A DNA stretch of 32,408 nucleotides, from contig NW_003116467.1 of NCBI RefSeq assembly GCF_000003605.2, positions 118,436 through 150,843 on the forward strand. The letters run 5' to 3'. The position numbers were made by a program, and so were the translations under genes. The notes below the pieces were generated by a model. That model was not told the origin of the DNA. It saw only the letters and a program-made list of their open reading frames with translations, and did no database searches. Below, piece after piece: positions 2,223-30,522 of the stretch (its first letter is position 1; each line of letters starts with the position of its first letter). This stretch comes from Saccoglossus kowalevskii. Lineage: Eukaryota > Hemichordata > Enteropneusta > Harrimaniidae.

Positions 2223-2248
2223 TCAGGACTAGTAAAAAAACTACTTAC

Positions 2249-2481
2249 TCTGAGTCGTAGGTAGTCACTGGTAATTCTTGTTCTACAAGAGAAAACTTTT
2301 TAACCTTTACAGGAGCTATAATGGGTTCAGTAAGCGGTTGCGTGTCTTCTTCCTGTATAATGGTTTCTACCTCCGGCCCATAGATTTCCTCTGATGTTGG
2401 ATAATATTTCTTATCTTCATGAAGAATTATAGCTTGTGTAGGTACATCATGTTCCATTGGTTCATCAATGTCGTCTTCAGC
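2249..2481 (-). CDS. EFTUD2: EFTUD2 exon 2 (U5 snRNP GTPase, N-terminal extension)
   Basis: The exon starts after the acceptor tatttgcag (AG at 2483-2482) and ends at 2249 before the donor gtaagt, leaving two bases of a split codon. It encodes about 78 residues of the EFTUD2 N-terminal region ahead of the GTPase domain. It includes [20 protein letters not shown] and [12 protein letters not shown], nearly identical to the conserved family sequence, and ends near LPVTTYDS. The following exons, including the G1 motif GHLHHGKT, are not found between 1 and 2248, so the gene continues beyond the left edge. An ATG-less reading upstream of the acceptor is intronic. The gene is partial here: about 115 of roughly 970 residues. 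Confidence 0.96.
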
Positions 2482-2934
2482 CTGCAAATATAAATAATCC
2501 CAAAGTTAAACTGGTCAGACATTGTAAGCAAAATCTTGTACATTTAGTATTACCGATAGTAATGCTTATATAAATGACACAAGTGTGTTTATGGTAAAAT
2601 ACGCCACATCCCCTCAGTTGCATCAGTGCTTGCCTTTTGAAAATGGATGGTGAGTGAAAAATTGCTCTCCTACAAGCACTGAGGCGAGTTATGGGAGTGA
2701 TTACAAATTTCTCTCCTAAAAGCAGTGAGGCGAGTGATTTTAGAAAATTATATGATTTGCAATAAGGGTGGACCCAGGGTGTTTTAGTAACTACATGTAT
2801 GCCTATGACTATAATTATAATGAATAAATTATTATGGAAATAAAATACTACAGACATGTTGTCATTCTTTTATATTTATTTATTTTTAAATCACACAACT
2901 TACTTTGAAATTGTGTCACAGTCAATCTCACATT

Positions 2935-6872: not shown

Positions 6873-7767
6873 GGTGTATGCACGTTAATGGGTGCCAAGC
6901 CGACGAACACGCTGTATTGTTTTGACTTTGTTCAATAATGATCCGATAATCAAAGGCGTTCGAATGAACGCAACAGAATAATATCAAAAATAACCCCGAT
7001 ACAGTTCCAATACACAACGACACAGTTATGTTAATTTTCAAACCACGCAAACGGCAGAAAATACGTTTCCTTGGCGGATAATTTGTTTTTCTTTCAAAAT
7101 GGCGGCCTCCAGACGCAGCGTGAACGTACAAATTTTGGACTATTGTCGTTGGTGGCGTTGTACGAATTTACGGGACCTTTTTTGTCTTCGATGTTACCCT
7201 GTTTGTATATGCGCATATCTGTTCCGCGGATATTTCAAGAACCGCTCTTCAGATTTCAATGAAAGTTGGTACATAGGTGTTTCAGTGAAATGCGCAGAAC
7301 TGGCTAGTTTTAGGTAAAAATATGTGCTTATTAATTACCAAATTTGCATAATAATTAGGCATGTTTTGGCTTTTCCACTAATAACTCAAGTACTAATCAT
7401 TACATTTCAATAGAACTTAGTACATATATGCTCTAGGACAATGCACATACTAGTACTCGATTGATTTTAGGTAAAAACAGCACCTAGTTGCCAATTTTGC
7501 TGTAATCTCCAGGGTATTTTTTAATTATCTGAGGATTTTACATTTGTGTATTTTGACATTGAAAAGTTAGTTATCCATGATAGCAACAGCAGTAGCAACA
7601 ACAGTGCATCGCAAAGCTATCAGCACAGTGATCTTTAAATTGTTTACTTCAGTGTTAAAATGCCCTTGGAGAAAAAAAAATTAGTAAACATTTTTTAGTT
7701 TCGTCAACAATGCGAAAAATCTTGAAATCTATGTACCAAGAGAAAAAAAAAATTGTGACCTTGATTT
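6873..7767. other. EFTUD2 upstream region
   Basis: This stretch holds the presumed EFTUD2 5' UTR and promoter, including a YY1-type element (7095-7106). Beyond that are two diverged repeat monomers (about 7250-7330 and 7400-7480) sharing TTTCAATGAAAGTTGGTACA-like and TTTTAGGTAAAAA words about 150 bp apart. No gene is recognised here. Confidence 0.55.
7095..7106 (-). promoter_or_regulatory. YY1-type promoter element upstream of EFTUD2
   Basis: CAAAATGGCGGC on the plus strand reads GCCGCCATTTTG on the EFTUD2 sense strand, the classic YY1 form often found at transcription starts of housekeeping genes. It lies 223 bp upstream of the EFTUD2 ATG. A 72-codon ORF begins at the ATG inside this motif on the plus strand, but it shows no recognised domain and the motif reading is preferred. 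Confidence 0.5.
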
Positions 7768-8553
7768 ACATGAAAATTAAATCGTGCTATCGGGCCTTTC
7801 GTCTACATGAAAATTAAATCGTGCTATCGGGCCTTTCGTCTACATGAAAATTAAATCGTGCTATCGGGCCTTTCGTCTACATGAAAATTAAATCGTGCTA
7901 TCGGGCCTTTCGTCTAAATGAAAATTAAATCGTGCTATCGGGCTTTTCGTCTACATGAAAATTAAATCGTGCTATCGGGCCTTTCGTCTACATGAAAATT
8001 AAATCGTGCTATCGGGCTTTTCGTCTACATGAAAATTAAATCGTGCTATCGGGCCTTTCGTCTACATGAAAATCAAATCGTGCTATCGGGCCTTTCGTCT
8101 ACATGAAAATTAAATCGTGCTATCGGGCCTTTCGTCTACATGAAAATCAAATCGTGCTATCGGGCCTTTCGTCTACATGAAAATTAAATCGTGCTACCGG
8201 GCCTTTCTTCTACATGAAAATTAAATCGTGCTACCGGGCCTTTCGTCTACATGAAAATTAAAACGTGCTATCGGGCCTTTCGTCTACATGAAAATTAAAT
8301 CGTGCTATCGGGCCTTTCGTCTACATGAAAATTAAATCGTGCTATCGGGCCTTTCGTCTACATGAAAATTAAATCGTGCTATCGGGCCTTTCGTCTACAT
8401 GAAAATTAAATCGTGCTATCGGGCCTTTCGTCTACATGAAAATTAAATCGTGCTATCGGGCCTTTCTTCTACATGAAAATTAAATCGTGCTATCGCGCCT
8501 TTCGTCTACATGAAAATTAAATCGTGCTATCGGGCCTTTCGTCTACATGAAAA
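7768..8553. repeat. 37-bp minisatellite, about 21 copies
   Basis: The unit begins ACATGAAAATTAAATCGTGC and continues TATCGGGCCTTTCGTCT. Copies are almost identical, with a few point variants (TAAATC/CAAATC, CTATC/CTACC, TTCGTCT/TTCTTCT). Units are head-to-tail without spacers. Low divergence suggests recent expansion. Confidence 0.95.
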
Positions 8554-9845
8554 TAAATAAAAATCAAATTATTTTACAGTATACCAATGAAAGCAGCCAG
8601 GCTAGAATTTGTCAACATATTGGTTTTTTTATTTATTTTTTTGTAGTTTGCAAGGCTAGTTGACCATGCTCGAGGTAAGTAAACAGGGAGCCAGAACAGG
8701 AAGTCACACATCGTACATCCTACTGAGGCCAACACTCTCCAGCAACTCATTTGCATATATCAGTCAACAGTGACTTGTCAATCAAAAAGTAACGTAAACA
8801 AACTTTCAGGACTTTTAATCACATGCACATGCCTCAGTTCCTTATATTTTAAAATGTTTTTTTTTTACGTCCCACCATGGACAAAGCTGACATTTTAACA
8901 CTATCTAGCCATGACTGCCTGAATAAGAAAATGTAAAAAAAAAAAAAAAATTTCACTCAAGTGCCCACATATTACCTAATTTGCATAATAATTAGTATCT
9001 GCATGGTATTATGCAAAGTTTAGGCCATGTGCCACATGCATGATATTATGCCAAGTACAAGTCATGCGACTCGATGTGCTGAATTGAGTTACAAACATAG
9101 AAGTACAAGAACAGTCACAAAAATAATATTTTGGAAACCATGCCTAAATTACAATCACCATAGGTGTTATAGTCTTTGTTAAATGTCTACATTCAATAAC
9201 GGACGTTAACCAAACTCATTATTATTAACTTTAGAGTTACAAAATGTATGCATGTTAAACAAATGTTAATTGAACATCTAATTAAAATTTTGGCACGAGT
9301 GGTTTGTAAATTATGGAAATGGTTCTTCAGTATTTCGGATCAACTTATGTTCTTGTGTTTGTTCTTGTATTTGCAACATCAATATTTATGCGATAGATAA
9401 TCTTTACCAATTTCACTTAAAGTATGAAACTTGCACAATCAAGGTTGTTTTTTATCATTCGTTTTATTGTCAGGTACAGAGAAAAAATTAAATGTAATTT
9501 AATATTTGGCCATCACTTTACCAATTTTTACCAAGCCAGATCCATGTATTAAATAGCACCCTCTATGGCAAATCAACATGTTGCTAAATGTCCATTGCCA
9601 ACTCTGATTGATAAACATGTTGGTATTCAGGCATTTCTTAGATAAATTAATAAACATCCTCAACCTGCTTTTGTCTTTGAAAATAATGCATATACATGTG
9701 ATGATGAAGGCTTAATGTCTTCAGATGACCAATTGTGATCACTAAAGACATAGAAAAAGGGTTCAAATTATTATGCAAATAATGTTTTACAAAAGCCATG
9801 CCTAATACAGTACAAATCAGATCTGTAGCTGCAGCGTTAATACAC
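8554..9845. other. Intergenic / 3' flank of the SNAG zinc-finger gene
   Basis: No gene is seen. A poly(A) run lies at about 8935-8950. On the minus strand an AATAAA (9468-9463) lies about 380 bp beyond the zinc-finger stop codon and is a plausible polyadenylation signal. Confidence 0.5.
9463..9468 (-). terminator. Possible polyadenylation signal AATAAA of the zinc-finger gene
   Basis: TTTATT on the plus strand gives AATAAA on the coding strand, about 380 nt past the stop codon. It is a plausible site; others in this AT-rich stretch cannot be excluded. Confidence 0.35.
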
Positions 9846-11086
9846 CTAGTGATCTTCTTGTGTGTTGTGTTCTGCTGCTGGAGTTATGTCCGAATTAACA
9901 ACCTGCAAGTGATTAAGCTGCTCAAATTTAAACATTACCAATGAGGTTTTCTGTAAATTCACAATTTCTGGATCAACGACAGTTACATTTTGAGTGTTTT
10001 CATCAGATCCTGTTCCTGTTTCTTCCTTGTTTGGTTCATTATTGTTAGTCTCTAACATAGCATTCATAATATATAGAATGTCATCATTTCTATCGTTATT
10101 TTCATTTGTATTTTGCATAGTGTTCAAATGAGCCAAGGCAGTTTGTTCAATATCATCTTTGCAGTCGTCTATATTCATTTCATCGTTACCAACCTCAACA
10201 CATTTGCTCTTACATTTTCCTTTTTTGTCACGTGCATACCGTGGTGGTTCCCGACATGGGTAATTAATTTTATGGTTTTCCATTTCATGTTTTCTTAATT
10301 CATACTTTCTGTGGAATGTTTCTTTGCAGACATGACAAGTTAATAGTTTTTTATCAGAATGTGCTTGCTGTAAGTGGTAAGAGAGGTTGGAGAGTTGATT
10401 GAAGCAGCGTTCACAGCATGGACACTGGTACGGTCGCTCTCCCGTGTGTGTATGCATATGATTCTTCAAGTTACCTTTCTGGTGAAATCCCTTCCCACAC
10501 ATATAACAAACGTGTGGCTTAGATTTACAGTGTGTTTTCATGTGTGCAATCAATGATGATGAACGATTGAAGTCTTTACTGCAGATTTGACACTTAAACG
10601 GTCTATTATCCGAGTGGATGACTTTGTGACGACACAGTGTACTACCCTGACGGAAGGTTTTACCGCAGACATTACACGCATACTTGCGCACACCTGTATG
10701 TACTGGTTGATGTCGTGTTAAAGTATACTGGGCATTGAAAACCTTTCCACACTCACAGCATTCGTAAGTTTTCTTAGTTCGCTGTTGCGTATTCCCATCA
10801 TCTTCATCACTTTTTTGTTCTACTTTCTGTTTGCCTTTACTGGTCATTTTATCAATACTGGAAGCAGTGCATTTTTTCTCCACACTTGCATCACAGTTTT
10901 CATCTTTGTTTTTTGATTCATTTACATTCCTATTCTTTTCAATATCTTGTTTTTTCATCTCAGATTGGATTTCAGCATCATCTCCACTTCTATTCTCATT
11001 TCTGTTATTTGCTTCCTCTTCTCTGTCCTCCACATCTCTTTTCTCCATCTTTTCTTTGTCACTCATTATTGCTGCTTCTTCAGTTC
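9846..11086 (-). CDS. SNAG zinc-finger repressor, exon 2: acidic linker and six C2H2 fingers (FEZ/GFI-like)
   Basis: This is the main coding exon of a predicted nuclear DNA-binding repressor of 432 residues. It starts after the acceptor tttttttttcccag (AG at 11088-11087) and needs one base from the previous exon, which the SNAG exon at 13694-13751 supplies. Residues about 21-125 are rich in Glu, Lys, Asp and Asn. Residues about 129-291 hold six C2H2 fingers, the last two with H-x4-H spacing. Fingers 1, 2 and 4 ([42 protein letters not shown]) closely resemble FEZF fingers; the last ([15 protein letters not shown]) also recalls GFI. The polar tail (292-432) has no known domain. The typical FEZF Eh1 motif is not seen. 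An internal Met (MSDKEKMEK) could start a shorter form lacking SNAG. Confidence 0.92.
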
Positions 11087-11794
11087 CTGGGAAAAAAAAA
11101 TTATTAAGCATCTCAAACTTTCATGAAATCAAGGTGAATTTAAACTGGGCAGTTTTTCTGCTAGAATATTTGAAAAGAAAAATTGGGAAGGCCATTATTG
11201 GTCATGTGTCTGTCACAGCAGAATTGTTTCATAACTTTAGTATTATTAAGTATAGTATAGGTTTTTGAACTTTTATGTAAAAATCCTTTTTTCAAGTGAG
11301 GACCATAAGGCCGGAAAGATTGCTATAGGCTAAAAGGACCAGCCTTGCTAATAATTATGCATCTGGATGATGTAGTAAAATTTGCATACAGGTGGAGCTA
11401 GTCTGCAAAAACAGGTGAAATGGGTTTTCAAAATGTTTAATTGATCTCATAATTTCCAGTTCACTATTTTATCTCCACTTCACAAATGCATTATAGCATT
11501 TGATTAAATCACAAAAGTTAAAAAACACAAGGCCAAGAGGAACTGTTGACAGTCTATGTAGCAACATCTTCGCCAGCCAAGGACCATTTATTCGGCCGAA
11601 ATCTTAACATTAACCCTTGGCAGATTTCACCACGATTTACTGTATGTCGCACTCCCTCTAACGATTATAAAATTCCATTCAGCTCATTTGAATCATCCAA
11701 TCAGAACTCACAAAAGAAACTTACACACATTACTTGGTAAAATTAAAATGGCAGAATCAAATAAACGTGTTGCTAGATTTGTCTCTGAATGAGC

Positions 11795-12106
11795 TTACTG
11801 GTCATAAAAAGAAAGCGCATAGTGCTGTATCTGAGGAAATTGACGCAACGTTTGTTGCAACCACAGTTCTTCGATTGTGTTGAAACGAAGATCAAATCGG
11901 GCAAGCCGATATGTTATCAGTTTCGATGGTTTTGTTAGTTTACAAAAACACGGTTTGCACAAATATTTAGACATTCCATCATCCTCAATCACTTGCCTAC
12001 AAACAATTTTCAACGTTGGAATAAGAAATTCTGGAAATGTGTCAACGAATATAGACCTTCTGTTCTTGACTCGCAGTGAATCAGCACAAAGCCTACATGA
12101 CACCAT
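11795..12106 (-). CDS. ZAD-like zinc-binding domain ORF nested in the zinc-finger gene intron
   Basis: A 103-residue ORF carries C4-x2-C7 (CRLC) and C50-x2-C53 (CKPC) pairs around a hydrophobic middle and the sequence EDDGMSKYLCKPC. This is the pattern of the zinc-finger-associated domain (ZAD), usually an N-terminal dimerisation module of C2H2 proteins. The ATG follows an in-frame TAG (12121-12119) and lies about 55 bp from a CCAAT box, suggesting its own promoter. The ORF ends CAG TAA GC, which is also a strong donor (CA then gtaagc). That donor leaves two bases, whereas the downstream zinc-finger exon needs one, so a direct join is out of frame. It is either a ZAD-only protein or the first exon of a transcript with a missing middle exon. 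Confidence 0.6.
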   Translation of the reverse strand: MVSCRLCADSLRVKNRRSIFVDTFPEFLIPTLKIVCRQVIEDDGMSKYLCKPCFCKLTKPSKLITYRLARFDLRFNTIEELWLQQTLRQFPQIQHYALSFYDQ

Positions 12107-12157
12107 TGTTTTAATCTGCTATGAGCTCCTTCGTTCTTTACATTTATGATACAGCAA

Positions 12158-13751: not shown

Positions 13752-14964
13752 TTTCAACCGATTTATTCGATCCAACGCGACCTAGAACGCACAGACATTT
13801 CTGGTTAAATAATAATATTCACCGTTATCAGTAACGAGGTTTTTGACTCAATAAAATTGACTGGTGTAAATGTACTTCTAATTCTGCCCTCATTTGTAAT
13901 TATTACCTTTCACATGTGCCATTGAGCACCGACTCGAGCATGCTGATTTGCATATTGTGACCGTTCCACGTGTACGTTGGGTAGGGCTGCCCCCTTCCCG
14001 TGCTGTGTATGTTGTAATAAGAATGACCTTGCTTGTGTAGCAAATTTTATTTATGTAACTGCAAATATATTTTGTCATTATTTGCATGTAAACTATAATT
14101 GTATTTCTAACAAGAGTATATGTCAAAATCCTTCCACACTAACTTACACAATAAGTCGAATAAGCAGCAGCAGGCGCAAAATAGTTGTATATACTCAACT
14201 CGCCTGGTAGGAAGTTACTGGGGGAGGGCCCAGGGAGGGAGGGACTTTGCAACATTCCAGACACTTTACTGAGAACTTGATTTCCAAAACACCGGATGGA
14301 GTATTTGAACTACTCCATTGTTTTGCAGGTACACGTACAACAAATAACATTGCTGTGCTCCTTGAACGAAGTGTAACACGAACATAAAACTGAGAATGGA
14401 TATTACATACGTATTACATTGCGTGTTTTGCCAACGATGTTGTGAATACATGGCAACACACAGTGCATTAGAAGTACTGTACAATCCATTGAACCACAGG
14501 GGCCTGTCAACTGTCGGCGAATCCCATAGTGCTCGCCGGCGTTAGTTGACAAGCCCATGTGCCTTGAACCGTTGCCCCACGAGACCAACTTCATTGACGA
14601 TCAGTAACGATCGTAAACAGTTTTCATCCAACAAGAGGCGAATAATCTTACATGCAAGCACTGTTTTTTGTTTTTATAAAAACGCATCCAGGAAATGAAT
14701 ATTCCCAGCTGTCAATAAAAGAGCGATGACATTAGAAGTTTGAGATTACCAGCAAGTTGTGATTGTGCAAATTAGCTACTTAATATGCACGGATAAGACT
14801 CGAAAACTAAATTTGATCAAAATCTGCACAGAAAGATTATATATTACAGTGGCAGTAACACAAGTGAGTTGTTTTTGGCTGAAATGATATAACCTAGTAC
14901 ATGTATGTATAAAAAATACTAACATTTCTTATTGAACTGACATTGAATATAAATAAAATATATC
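13752..14964. other. Upstream region of the SNAG gene, intergenic
   Basis: This is presumed 5' UTR and promoter of the minus-strand gene, then intergenic sequence. The only distinctive structure is the hairpin at 14499-14555. Small ORFs here have no recognisable features. Confidence 0.5.
14499..14555. other. Imperfect hairpin
   Basis: GGCCTGTCAACT pairs with AGTTGACAAGCC (one C/A mismatch), and the inner CGGCGA pairs with TCGCCG after a small internal loop, leaving a 12-nt terminal loop. It is GC-rich compared with its surroundings. It could be a remnant of an inverted-repeat element or a hairpin RNA; the sequence alone does not decide. Confidence 0.5.
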
Positions 14965-15912
14965 TGTGATACGATATACGAATTACATATCTGGTATTAT
15001 GTTGGTTTAATACGAACCCTGTAATACGATATACGAACATATCTGGAATTATGTTGATTTAGCACGAACTATGTAATACGATATACGAACATATCTGGTA
15101 TTATGTTGGTTTAATACGAATCTTATAATACGATATAAGAACATATATGGTATTATGGTGGTTTAATACGAACCCTGTAATACGATATACGAACATATCT
15201 GGTATTATGTTGGTTTAATACGAACCCTGTAATACGATATACGAACATAAATGGTATTATGTTGGTTTAATACGAACCCTGTAATACGATATACGAACAT
15301 ATCTGGTATTATGTTGATTTAGCACGAACTATGTAATACGATATACGAACATATCTGGTATTATGTTGGTTTAATACGAACCCTGTAATATGATATACGA
15401 ACGTATATGTGATTATGTTGATTTAATACGAACCCTGTAATACGATATAGGAACATATCTGGTATTATGTTGGTTCAATACGAACCCTGTAATACGATAT
15501 AGGAACATATCTAGTATATGTTGGTTTAATACGAATCTTATAATACGATATAAGAACATATATGGTATTATGTTGGTTTAATACGAACCCTATAATACGA
15601 TATAAGAACATATCTCGTATATGTTGGTTTAATACGAACCCTGTAATACGATATACGAACATATCTGGAATTATGTTGATTTAATACGAACCCTGTAATA
15701 CGATATACGAACATATCTGGTATTATGTTGGTTTAATACGAACCCTGTAATACGATATACGAACATATCTGGTGTTATGTTGGTTTAATACGAACCCTGT
15801 AATACGATATACGAACATATCTGTTATTATGTTGGTTTAATACGAACCCTGTAATACGATATACGAACATATCTGGTATTATGTTGGTTTAATACGAACA
15901 TGTAATACTATA
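14965..15912. repeat. 52-bp minisatellite, about 18 copies
   Basis: The unit starts ATCTGGTATTATGTTGGTTT and continues AATACGAACCCTGTAATACG then ATATACGAACAT. The word ATACGAA occurs twice per unit. Copies vary by substitutions and a few small deletions, so the array is older than the 37-bp one. The last unit decays at about 15900-15912. Minus-strand reading frames such as RITGFVLNQH repeats are by-products. Confidence 0.93.
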
Positions 15913-17363
15913 TACTATATTACTGACTGCTAAACCCGACTACAATAATATAAAAAAAACAAATAACGTCCATGAACAAATTGGGTTGAATTGTGGTGCA
16001 TTGGGTTGACTTTCACAGACGTTATGTGAATAACACTGAGTATTTTTTAGCATGTTTAAATAATTTGTTTTGCTGTTGTTATAATATAACTTGATAAAGA
16101 CAATATGGTACATAGTAGCATTCAGTTGTTGAAAACTCTTATACGCATGCGTCCTGGATCTACCTTCACGTACATGTGATTTAAAACTCTGAATGATGTA
16201 CAGACAGTTTTTAAGACTTTTCTATTGATTGGCAGATGATTAGAATTTTTTTCCGAAACAAGTTAACGAAAACAAGGCCACGAGCTACGATGATGTGTAA
16301 ATAATATGTGTTCCTGATATACCGCCGCGTAACTCTATGAAGTTAATAATAGTTGTATTAACAGTTTGTCATATTAATGGAGAATGTCCATTGAAACTGC
16401 TCATTAAACAACCTAATATCGCACTATTGTTGAACTTGAACTCTATTATTCGCGAATAAACAGAGGGACTGTGGTATAACTCTATGAAGAAAGAGTTAAC
16501 AATAGAAAACATTTTGTTTTTATTGAAACTACTAGTATTATGTAATGAATATCGTCTGGGAAATTAAATTTGAGTTGTATTAACAGCTGTTGCCTGTAAC
16601 TCGATGTTTGGTTAACTGTTACTTAAGGTAGAAGCCTATATATTATTTTTTTTGAAAGTTGATCACAAATCGTATGACAATGCTCAATGGTCTATTATGT
16701 AAAATCATGGAGCTACTAGTATTGTCCCACGCCACCATAAAATAACATTCTTTTGTGTGTTATATGCTTACTTTCTTACGGAAAATGACTTTAGTTTGAC
16801 CACCATATCCACTCTGCTTACGATCACACCTTCTACTATCCACTAAAATACAACCATCATTTTCGAAAATTAAGCTGGTGACTGTTTTTTAAGTCAATAT
16901 TTTTATATTGCCCAGAAGTACTATATATTGAAAAATAGACAATTACTGAGTAATTGAATTCATTAGTGCCCTTAACTCGAAGTCCTGTTAACTGTTAATT
17001 GAACATCGAATTACAATTTGGACAAGGTCTCATAAAAGTAGGCGTCGTATAGAAATAGACCACTTTCCCGGAAGTCGAAGATACGGCGTTTCGCATGCGC
17101 GCGCATACCGTTTGAGATGTAACGTAAACGTGAATTCGTGATATTGTGCTTGTGGGTGTACCAATCGACGTGACAAAAATAAGATTCCTTTTTATCGAAT
17201 ATCAACAGTTTGTTTTTAAACCATGAAAAAGGCGAGCGTCGTTCTTGCACCACTGTCTCACTACTAGTACTTCCGGGAAGTTACCACTACCACTGTCCGC
17301 CTCAAGAGGGCGTTGTCGATGACCTTTGCGCATGCGGAGCTGTACGAGCTGTACAAGGTTTGA
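15913..17363. other. Intergenic region and RPL36A promoter
   Basis: AT-rich intergenic DNA without a recognised gene runs to about 17040. From there to 17363 is a CpG-containing promoter with paired ETS and NRF1 motifs (17067-17337). Confidence 0.6.
17067..17337 (+). promoter_or_regulatory. RPL36A promoter: two ETS and two NRF1 motifs
   Basis: Four motifs stand out: CCCGGAAGT (17067-17075), GCATGCGCGCGCAT (17093-17106), ACTTCCGGG (17269-17277) and TGCGCATGCGG (17327-17337). These are an ETS and an NRF1-like site, then an inverted ETS and a second NRF1 site, ending about 27 bp before the putative start. ETS and NRF1 sites are typical of TATA-less housekeeping promoters. The inverted pairing could support divergent transcription, but no leftward gene was found. 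Confidence 0.55.
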
Positions 17364-19492: not shown

Positions 19493-19735
19493 TTTTGCCG
19501 ATCGTCGAAAATTTTTTTGGAAACGACCTTCTTTCTGGAAGTCAAAAATGTTGGCTACGATTTATCAAAGTAACTAATACTAGTATGTTTTGAAATAGTT
19601 GGGTAAAGTTTATCGTGGCAATTTTTAAGTTTAGCGACTTTTCAAAATGGCGGCAATTTGTTTATTTTCGTGTTGATCGTGACGATATTTTTTAAATACA
19701 AGTATTGATTCGCTCCTATTTCTTATCTTTTAGGA

Positions 19736-19948
19736 ATGCTGTGTCACATATGTGGAAAATTCAACTTAAAAACATCCAGAAATAGTTCTTTGGTATGGAA
19801 TTCTATGCCATGTATAAATATTACGAAATATGCTATCGATAAACACGCACACTCGGAGATGCACAAGAAGGCCATGTCATTTAATAGAAGTGGGAAGCAA
19901 AGAAAATCACGGCGTTCTCAAAAGCTGCAGATCACTGGGCTTCCATGA
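19736..19948 (+). pseudogene. hAT transposase N-terminal zinc-finger fragment
   Basis: A 70-residue frame has C-x2-C (CHICGKF) and a later KHAHSEMHKKA block with spaced His residues, as in the BED/TTF-type finger at the N-terminus of hAT transposases. It follows a pyrimidine tract and acceptor-like tatcttttag at about 19724-19733, so it may be an exon. It stops after GLP and no RNase H-like catalytic or dimerisation region follows before the right end of the element at 20154. Confidence 0.55.
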
Positions 19949-27802: not shown

Positions 27803-27909
27803 ATGACGTCGTTTCCTGTTATGAAAGTGATATTGCTTGTCCTGTGCGCATTGTCCGTGGTTCAAGGATGCTGGCGAAGTAAAAACAAAGATACAACAGA
27901 AGAAGAAGA
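27803..27909 (+). CDS. Secreted Cys-rich Tlde1-like protein, exon 1 (signal peptide)
   Basis: The ATG at 27803 starts MTSFPVMKVILLVLCALSVV, a typical signal peptide with likely cleavage after QG (residue 22), followed by CWRSKNKDTTEEE. The donor gtaaga at 27910 overlaps an apparent TAA, so the unspliced frame stops at once; splicing leaves two bases (phase 2). Exon 2 supplies the third. The predicted product of three exons is 203 residues, secreted or lumenal. Confidence 0.85.
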
Positions 27910-29737
27910 GTAAGATACATTTATTTTAAAGCATTAACATTGTATGTTTGACCATACCACGATACATCACATATAAATGACTTAACTATCATTCTTATGT
28001 TGCAAACTTAACCAGTATATGTTAAGTCCGACACAATGGCCAGTAGCAAGCTATTATTTCGTAGTGTATTAATATGCAAAATATGCATAGTCACCCGAAT
28101 TTGTTCATACTTTCAACAAAAACTGAGTTGTACATGTTATGTGTGCAATATAGTCAGTTCAACTTGAATTTTAGCAGATGATATGTCGTTCTACTGTCAT
28201 CGCGAGAATAGTAGTAATCCGCTGGGCAATGCATATATCTAGTAGTATTGCAATGTTTCACTGTCTTACACTGAGCGTCGCCTCGTGTTACACTAAACAA
28301 GCCGAGTCGCTGGTGGACTCGTCTTCTCGAACTGCATAAAAACTACACAAAATGCATATTCGAGTGAAATTTTTTGCTGGAAACATGTAATAAATCTATT
28401 TTAATAGTTTTCTACACAAAAACACGATGCATAAAGCCACATTGCTTTGAATGTTTACCATTCCATTTTCCATGATCGAAGTGGGCATATCAATTTTGGT
28501 TGATGTTACACACAATCATTTTAATGTAAATGTAGGTTTCAGTGAAATTACTACAAATATAGTATAACTATATAAAAAAAAACTAATGCGATAACATTTT
28601 GGCGCAGTATTTTTATTTCAATGTGGGATTGTAACTTTTACCGTGTGACGTTCTGGCCAAACTAATCCCATATCTGCTTCCATAACTCTGGTTGGGAGAC
28701 ATACATTATAGTTGTCCTTATCATTCAGTTTCTTGTAAAATATTGCGTACATAGAAATGGTACCTTCGGCATCGTTGTGAATCGGAAGTAGAAGCAGTTA
28801 AGTACGCGTATTTACTGGCAAGTATACTAAAATGCATTCCATATTTAGGACAAATTCCATCTGAACTGATCCGTATTCAAAAAATAACATTAGAAGTTGG
28901 CTAGATCGATTCACCGACCCCGAACTATGGAAAGATTTGTGACTCGGCTTACTGCAATAGCAACAAACCTCGACGTGGACAACTCTCATTTAATGGAAGG
29001 GTTTCTGCATCACAGACCCCGTCTTCTGATAATAGCAACCTCACCCCAGAAGCAGTCACACTAGACTTGGCAGTCTTCAAACTTTCCAAGTATTCCACTG
29101 TTAGGAGGAGTCAAGCGCACCCGAGCCCTGCCGGTATTCTTGGCAGGGCATAGTAGACTTGCAGCTCTGAAGTCGAATACGCGGCCATGTTCAACGTCCG
29201 AAAGACTAGTTCAGTCTTATATAGAAGAAATCCCGAGTTGTTCGCATCTTGTTTTTTAATATTTTGTCAGTAGGTAACGTACGTACATTACGGCACGTAT
29301 ATTTAGTCTGTATGTAAGCGTAAACTTTGATGGCATAGCCCTTTCAGTGTAGGGTTAATGATTTAGCTTGCATGCGTGGGTGGAGTGAAAAGTGAAAAAT
29401 CCACATGCAATTTGCAAATTAAAATGACTAAAACAAGCTGGTTCCATTTTAGGTAAAAATTTTGCTGGATTTGTTTGAATCTGCTAGATTGTTGTGAAAT
29501 TGTGGCACGTTGAGATATGGTTACATTTTGGCAATATTTTGTGTTGACTTGATTAGTTGATAAGCAATAATGTTCCATGTATAGCAATATTGTTATCCAA
29601 ACAGTGATGTAAATTGCAATATTGCCCAGTAGATTATTCTAGCGATGATATAGTAATCGTTGCATGGAATCACCTACATGATCGTTGGTATAAAATAAAT
29701 CAAGATAACACCCCGACCTTTTTCATCTCTTATACAG
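27910..29737 (+). other. Intron 1 of the secreted-protein gene
   Basis: Phase-2 intron of 1.8 kb from gtaaga to cttatacag. A GC-richer patch at about 28990-29240 includes a perfect 8-bp hairpin (GCCCTGCC/GGCAGGGC, 29125-29149). No other gene is recognised. Confidence 0.8.
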
Positions 29738-29872
29738 AACTGTGCCCTCGTGTTGTCGTAACTCTGGAAACAGACTGAGACAGCGTAATCCGACACCACT
29801 GCCAGACGAGTACGGGACAAACCACGCCGAGTGTGTTTATGATAAAGAGAATGGGTGTTTAATGTGTAAAAG
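29738..29872 (+). CDS. Secreted Cys-rich Tlde1-like protein, exon 2
   Basis: It completes Glu36 and codes residues 37-80, with TVPSCCRNSGNRLRQRNP at the start and ECVYDKENGCLMCK at the end. Five Cys (41, 42, 68, 76, 79) suggest a small disulfide-bonded N-terminal module before the core domain. Acceptor tacag at 29737; donor gtaaca at 29873; phase 2 on both sides. The module is not recognised as a named domain. Confidence 0.85.
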
Positions 29873-30152
29873 GTAACATGTTTTGACGAATAAACACAGT
29901 ACACATTGTCACAGTCAAAATAATAATCGACGCCCCCCCGTATATAGTTGGAATTCCCAATGGACGTGTCCTACGAACGGGTTAGTTTTATCGGGATAAT
30001 ATATTTGTTGCGTTGTGTGCTACTGATACAAAGTATGCCTACGGATATTTTGCAAATCGTTGTGTACGAATAATTTCTTTGTTTTTAATTTAATTGGTGC
30101 TTTATATGATAAATGCCATTATTATTATAACATACATGCTTTGTTTCTGTAG

Positions 30153-30522
30153 CCCCGCCGGCACCTCACAGTGTTGTACGATGCCATTCCAAAACAAGAA
30201 CCACCCAGCAGGGTTGATACCAGTTGGAGAGTATCTAATGAGCCAACCTTACGAGCACCCTATGCAGCAGATAGATTGGGTCAAACTGATGCCGAAGAAA
30301 GCCGACGGTAACGGTTATTGGGCATATGACGAACCCAATGAGTCTGGCAGGTCGTACATGTCTCTACATCCGGGCTGTTTTGTACTGAACTCCGTTACCG
30401 TAGATACGTGCGAGTCCAATAAAGGCACGTGTTGGATGCAGACTAAAGCTGTCCTAGAGGGCGGCACATTCTTCAATGAATGGGACGGTGACTTCTATTC
30501 AGGGATACTTCGTGTTATTTGA
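30153..30522 (+). CDS. Secreted Cys-rich protein, exon 3: Tlde1/DUF2778-like core domain (tentative)
   Basis: Codes residues 81-203 and the TGA stop. The acceptor is ctgtag at 30152. The order of motifs resembles Tlde1/DUF2778, an L,D-transpeptidase (YkuD)-like domain of bacterial type VI effectors: GLIPVGEY (bacterial G-x-IP-x-G-x-Y), WVKLMPK (a P-containing strand), SGRSYMSLHPG (GRSGF-x-IHG-like, with His153), then SNKGTCWM (S-x-GC-like, with Cys174). The family would use the His and Cys to cut or exchange peptidoglycan peptides. Here the His-Cys distance is 21 residues, longer than in the bacterial forms I recall, and GC is replaced by GTC. Mature Cys number is 11, so one may be free. The gene structure is firm; the family assignment is a hypothesis. 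Confidence 0.8.

Follow-up and report, generated by a model that had tools for sequence, protein, structure and literature searches.

A probably secreted, cysteine-rich orphan protein of Saccoglossus kowalevskii shares an ordered motif series, but not the nucleophile signature, with bacterial Tlde1

Animals can make secreted proteins out of interbacterial weapons, as exemplified by the Tae amidases that were domesticated as Dae. Another family of bacterial and phage proteins, Tlde1 (PF10908, formerly DUF2778), comprises L,D-carboxypeptidases/transpeptidases. In PMC9638812, the generic L,D-transpeptidase motif is given as HXX14-17-(S/T)HGCh, and the solved Tlde1a structure contains two disulfides plus a separate catalytic Cys131. 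No animal Tlde1 was found among the papers listed in the literature searches, of which PMC9638812, PMC9144972, PMC10434147 and PMC3482391 were consulted. Could a hemichordate have captured such a domain? An initial annotation of the window analysed here, the whole 32,408-nucleotide stretch of a Saccoglossus kowalevskii contig, proposed just this for one three-exon gene.

The joined exons (27803-30522) translate into a protein of 203 residues (Table 1). Known here from the DNA, the gene is real and apparently intact, and the phase-2 junctions of the initial annotation were confirmed by translation and GT-AG splice sites. The N-terminus is hydrophobic and signal-like, as had been proposed; judged from hydropathy alone, with a maximum of 3.25 in an 11-residue window (starts 9-10) and values below zero from start 17 onward, the protein is probably secreted. 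Beyond residue 22 lie 181 residues (20.5 kDa, calculated pI 5.2). Cysteines occupy positions 15, 23, 41, 42, 68, 76, 79, 88, 89, 156, 167 and 174, which bears out the proposed Cys-rich module with eleven mature Cys; since this number is odd, one thiol may be free. Within exon 2, CVYDKENGCLMC could form an N-terminal beta hairpin. The four motifs singled out at the outset are all present and in the order claimed: GLIPVGEY (from residue 101), WVKLMPK (123), SGRSYMSLHPG (145) and SNKGTCWM (169).

Table 1. Exons and introns of the gene for the 203-residue protein, and other gene features of the window.
Feature	Position	Strand	Description	Basis
Exon 1	27803..27909	+	107 nt; start codon, hydrophobic signal-peptide-like residues 1-22, acidic linker up to residue 36	Translation, splice sites, hydropathy, frame score
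Intron 1	27910..29737	+	Phase 2, GT-AG; GTAAG..ACAG; 1.8 kb	
Exon 2	29738..29872	+	135 nt; Cys-rich stretch Cys41, 42, 68, 76, 79	Translation
Intron 2	29873..30152	+	Phase 2, GT-AG; GTAAC..GTAG	
Exon 3	30153..30522	+	370 nt including stop; residues 81-203; domain with GLIPVGEY (101), W123-x-x-L126, R147-x5-H153-P, Cys156, Cys167, Cys174	
EFTUD2 exon (U5 snRNP 116K N-terminus)	2248-2505	-		Pfam, E 3.1e-28
C2H2 zinc-finger gene	9849-11120	-	At least 4 fingers	Pfam
Fragment resembling C17orf113 probable zinc finger	19709-19945	+		E 2.2e-5, under curated cut-off

The 203-residue protein matched no Pfam family by single-sequence hmmscan (E≤10) and nothing in NCBIfam, and PHROGs returned two rows only (E 0.087 and 0.33). 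Neither the Tlde1 profile (PF10908, E≤10) nor the YkuD profile (PF03734) found a match across the 572-Mb genome; in 14 control genomes PF10908 gave one match and none over the cut-off, and a positive case, JC1 gp41, matches it at 9.6e-36. A PDB sequence search gave seven rows, none convincing; the best (E 0.041) is attributed to chance, as it aligns partly to tag-like HHHHSSGLVPRGSH of another protein. There were no matches in phages, three in plasmids, taken as chance, and none in viral_contigs by exact peptide patterns. Among 398 genomes of one bacterial phylum (that of Massilia locus L032) no relative rose above noise: 26 of them contained matches at E≤0.1 per genome, which is about or below chance. 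Nine loci were checked, eight of these and one from two genomes searched beforehand (E 0.14, also noise), and none held a Tlde1-profile match in ORFs of more than 40 aa.

The gene lies among animal genes, as Pfam matches identify an EFTUD2 exon and a C2H2 zinc-finger gene in the window. In the assembly searched (572,110,611 bases in 4,830 contigs), exon 3 (E≤1) and exon 2 (E≤10) match only themselves, and the gene appears single-copy as far as searched; these searches, run exon by exon with a single sequence, may have missed remote paralogs. The pattern G-L-I-P-x-G-x-Y occurs at three places in the genome, this gene and two sites with stop-ridden frames, against eight for the reversed control pattern. 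Elsewhere in the window, an ORF upstream of the zinc-finger gene (11798-12118, minus strand) is ZAD-like by eye and has no Pfam match. Three repeat arrays are also present: a long 26-bp direct-repeat array from 23567 to about 25400 (60 overlapping copies, with open frames in several phases), 37-bp units at 7604-8680 (at least 22 overlapping copies) and 52-bp units at 14842-16003 (at least 15 copies, one gap). Inverted-repeat pairs with members 4 to 20 kb apart (1786-1875/20239-20325, 5264-5406/25765-25887 and 16758-16853/20933-21028) are possibly dispersed transposon copies.

The protein lacks the catalytic signature of Tlde1. After the conserved His, 101 of 106 Tlde1 sequences carry [ST]-x-G-C, either at +11 (90) or at +13 (11), and the other five fail this pattern, among them L132 with S-L-G-C at +8. 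Variation in this loop is seen among phage contigs: the His-Cys loop of L132 is shortened to HPGRLSLGC (offset 8), and a subgroup (L127, L141, L145, L148 and L157) reads H-P-L-x-x-D-G-S/T-G-x-S-x-G-C, with the Cys at +13 rather than +11. Nowhere in the 203-residue protein does [ST]-x-G-C occur; the initial annotation had itself flagged GTC in place of GC. Its cysteines lie at +3, +14 and +21 from His153, and the nucleophile column is occupied by Cys156, not Cys174, in MAFFT, hhalign and glocal alignments. The 21-residue gap from His153 to Cys174 had been counted against activity, and it does fall outside the range of the Tlde1 panel, but it is an allowed spacing of HXX14-17-(S/T)HGCh as given in PMC9638812; in letters the motif is not matched, since this protein has K-G-T in place of (S/T)-H-G. 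Cys156, Cys167 and Cys174 are more likely to be mainly disulfide partners than to supply a catalytic nucleophile.

What, then, speaks for Tlde1? Three motifs follow one another in the 203-residue protein: G-x-[IL]-P-x-G-x-Y, W-x-x-L and R-x5-H-P. When A or N is permitted at the second G, 81 of 83 Tlde1 sequences have this order too; with that G fixed and the third position left free, 79 of 83 do. Such an order is expected near 1e-9 per random protein of like composition, a figure to be read in the knowledge that the pattern was written with this protein known. One hallmark named in the initial annotation is not exact: in the Tlde1 sequences gathered for this analysis the His strand is mainly R-G-x-F-R-[LI]-H-P and not Arg-Ser...His-Gly. 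A second approach used blind anchors, positions picked solely by conservation among Tlde1 with the 203-residue protein ignored. At a threshold of 0.8 its anchor chain scored 77.2, whereas shuffles averaged 53.8, and none of 24,000 shuffles reached this score (highest 76.2; a Gumbel fit on the same shuffles gives 0.0014). At 0.9, its score was reached by one of 1,500 shuffles, or two of 1,500 with wider spacing. Of 224 real segments from bacteria and phages, none scored as high as the protein in any of four settings. The protein matches 18 of 42 anchors at 0.8 and 15 of 29 at 0.9, some in one-letter blocks, and the nucleophile G-C anchor is not matched in the 24,000-shuffle setting; no score among the 78 Tlde1 is below 148.5. 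The blind test is suggestive of Tlde1 kinship, but because the family was picked post hoc among thousands it does not establish homology.

Profile comparisons gave no significant score. With a profile of 78 Tlde1, hmmsearch assigned the domain 2.0 bits, and 246 of 20,000 shuffles score as high; with 106 non-redundant Tlde1 it was 354 or 180 of 20,000, depending on weighting, i.e., about 1-2% of shuffles equal the hmmsearch scores. With hhalign, P was 0.077 (local) and 0.43 (global) against the 78 Tlde1, and 0.16 against five phage Tlde1, on a different stretch. In a glocal PSSM search the protein's score was equalled or exceeded by 3 of 400 shuffles, and by 4 of 160 real ORFs. As calibration, profile A3 (43 rows, one being the 203-residue protein) found only YkuD in the PDB (E 0.94), and profile A1, which omits it, found YkuD at E 0.41, with an unrelated cytochrome c1 close behind at E 0.48; given this weak recovery, a remote relative may have been missed. 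The structure comparison envisaged in the initial annotation was made on a low-confidence model. Guided by 42 Tlde1 rows, it has a pLDDT of 60.9, against 33.0 from the protein alone, a rise that is biased by that alignment. L,D-transpeptidases are absent from the best 50 of its 71 PDB structure matches and from four VIA matches, and among the best 50 of 278 BFVD matches a single phage Tlde1 protein occupies rank 17 (E 1.6, 33 columns). Rank 2 in BFVD is a 131-residue protein (probability 0.54, 55 columns, 27% identity).

The reading that we favour, at a probability of a little over one half (about 0.53), is that of an orphan protein, secreted and rich in Cys, that lacks catalysis of the Tlde1 type, because no curated family (Pfam, NCBIfam), no second copy and no [ST]-x-G-C were found. 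The product would be a small secreted animal protein, perhaps lineage-restricted, in which a Cys-rich segment is followed by a C-terminal domain that is probably rich in beta strands. We infer that it most likely acts extracellularly, in binding (the default) or in a structural/defence role, stabilised by disulfides, and not as an L,D-transpeptidase-type cysteine enzyme. Against this stand the anchor-chain score, unmatched by 24,000 shuffles and 224 real segments, the generic His-Cys spacing and the possible free thiol. Tlde1 ancestry is possible, though less likely than not, and unproven; this being so, and with the nucleophile motif lacking, the protein should not be filed under Tlde1. The proposal of a captured bacterial antibacterial domain holds in part: a secreted-looking animal protein with introns and ordered motifs is what the DNA encodes, but neither Pfam, NCBIfam and PDB sequence matches nor the profile scores and the best structure matches lend support to homology, S-x-G-C is absent, and it is unproven that the protein was domesticated as an antibacterial enzyme.

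Of the alternatives, a strongly diverged Tlde1/YkuD descendant that has lost catalysis fares best, and is itself unlikely. Here the fold core would have been kept, and the S-x-G-C loop would have given way to one that bears a disulfide (C156 to C174); the domain might now bind peptidoglycan or some other ligand. The three ordered motifs, the blind anchor chain, a C-terminal FYSGILRVI comparable to the Y-G-x-V-x-V of many Tlde1 and the higher pLDDT with Tlde1 rows are consistent with such a history, whereas the insignificant profile scores, an anchor score far under that of the lowest Tlde1, the alignment bias of the pLDDT and the lack of an L,D-transpeptidase among the best PDB matches argue against it.

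An incomplete or partly mistaken three-exon model is improbable; had an exon been overlooked within the 1.8-kb intron 1 or further upstream, the Cys count and the N-terminus would be unreliable. By a codon score derived from two further coding stretches of the window, exon 1 (0.001) and exon 3 (-0.03) are near zero, and the exon 3 frame exceeds its other frames (-0.25 and -0.28) by a modest margin, in a model read from DNA alone. In each of the three exons, nonetheless, the chosen frame outscores the other two, the phases are consistent, the start is signal-like and a stop terminates the last exon. Slightly less probable still is a working domesticated Tlde1-type antibacterial enzyme secreted to act on peptidoglycan, in which a signal peptide, introns and a loop with a disulfide would have been added to a captured domain, its dyad being remade from His153 with Cys174 (GTC) or Cys156 (HPGC): motif order, anchor chain, secretion-like N-terminus, an offset of 21 within the generic motif (PMC9638812) and Cys156 at the nucleophile column, where the loop can shrink as in L132, are outweighed by KGTC where that motif has (S/T)HGC, by spacings of 3, 14 and 21 where 101 of 106 Tlde1 have 11 or 13, and by the want of a family-level match or of a relative above noise in the 398 genomes of one phylum.

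As the evidence stands, the locus adds to the secreted, Cys-rich orphans. Should the kinship be genuine, animals would have come from an interbacterial weapon to a secreted protein by a second path, next to that from Tae to Dae, and if the enzyme worked, it would be a secreted antibacterial of a kind not found for animals in the literature searched.

Compared with Tlde1, the 203-residue protein is alike in G-x-[IL]-P-x-G-x-Y, W-x-x-L and R-x5-H-P, in a comparable length after GLIPVGEY, in a similar terminal strand and in the gap from W..L to Arg (20 residues; 15-29 in the panel). It differs in a shorter loop from Y to W (14 residues; 16-35 in the panel), in lacking D-R or G-G past the first motif and F-R before L-H-P, and in the missing [ST]-x-G-C, the His-Cys spacing and the lack of a profile match. 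YkuD (PF03734) shares with this protein, in general outline, a G-x-Y-type strand. The two also have in common the His-Cys spacing of the generic motif in PMC9638812, but YkuD reads (S/T)HGC where KGTC stands here, and there is no Pfam match. Dae belongs to another enzyme family, and the present protein lacks a Pfam match and a bacterial source in the 398 genomes of one phylum; as an idea, however, a secreted, intron-bearing animal protein derived from a bacterial effector is what Dae exemplifies, and both the signal suggested by hydropathy and the introns read from the DNA would fit it.
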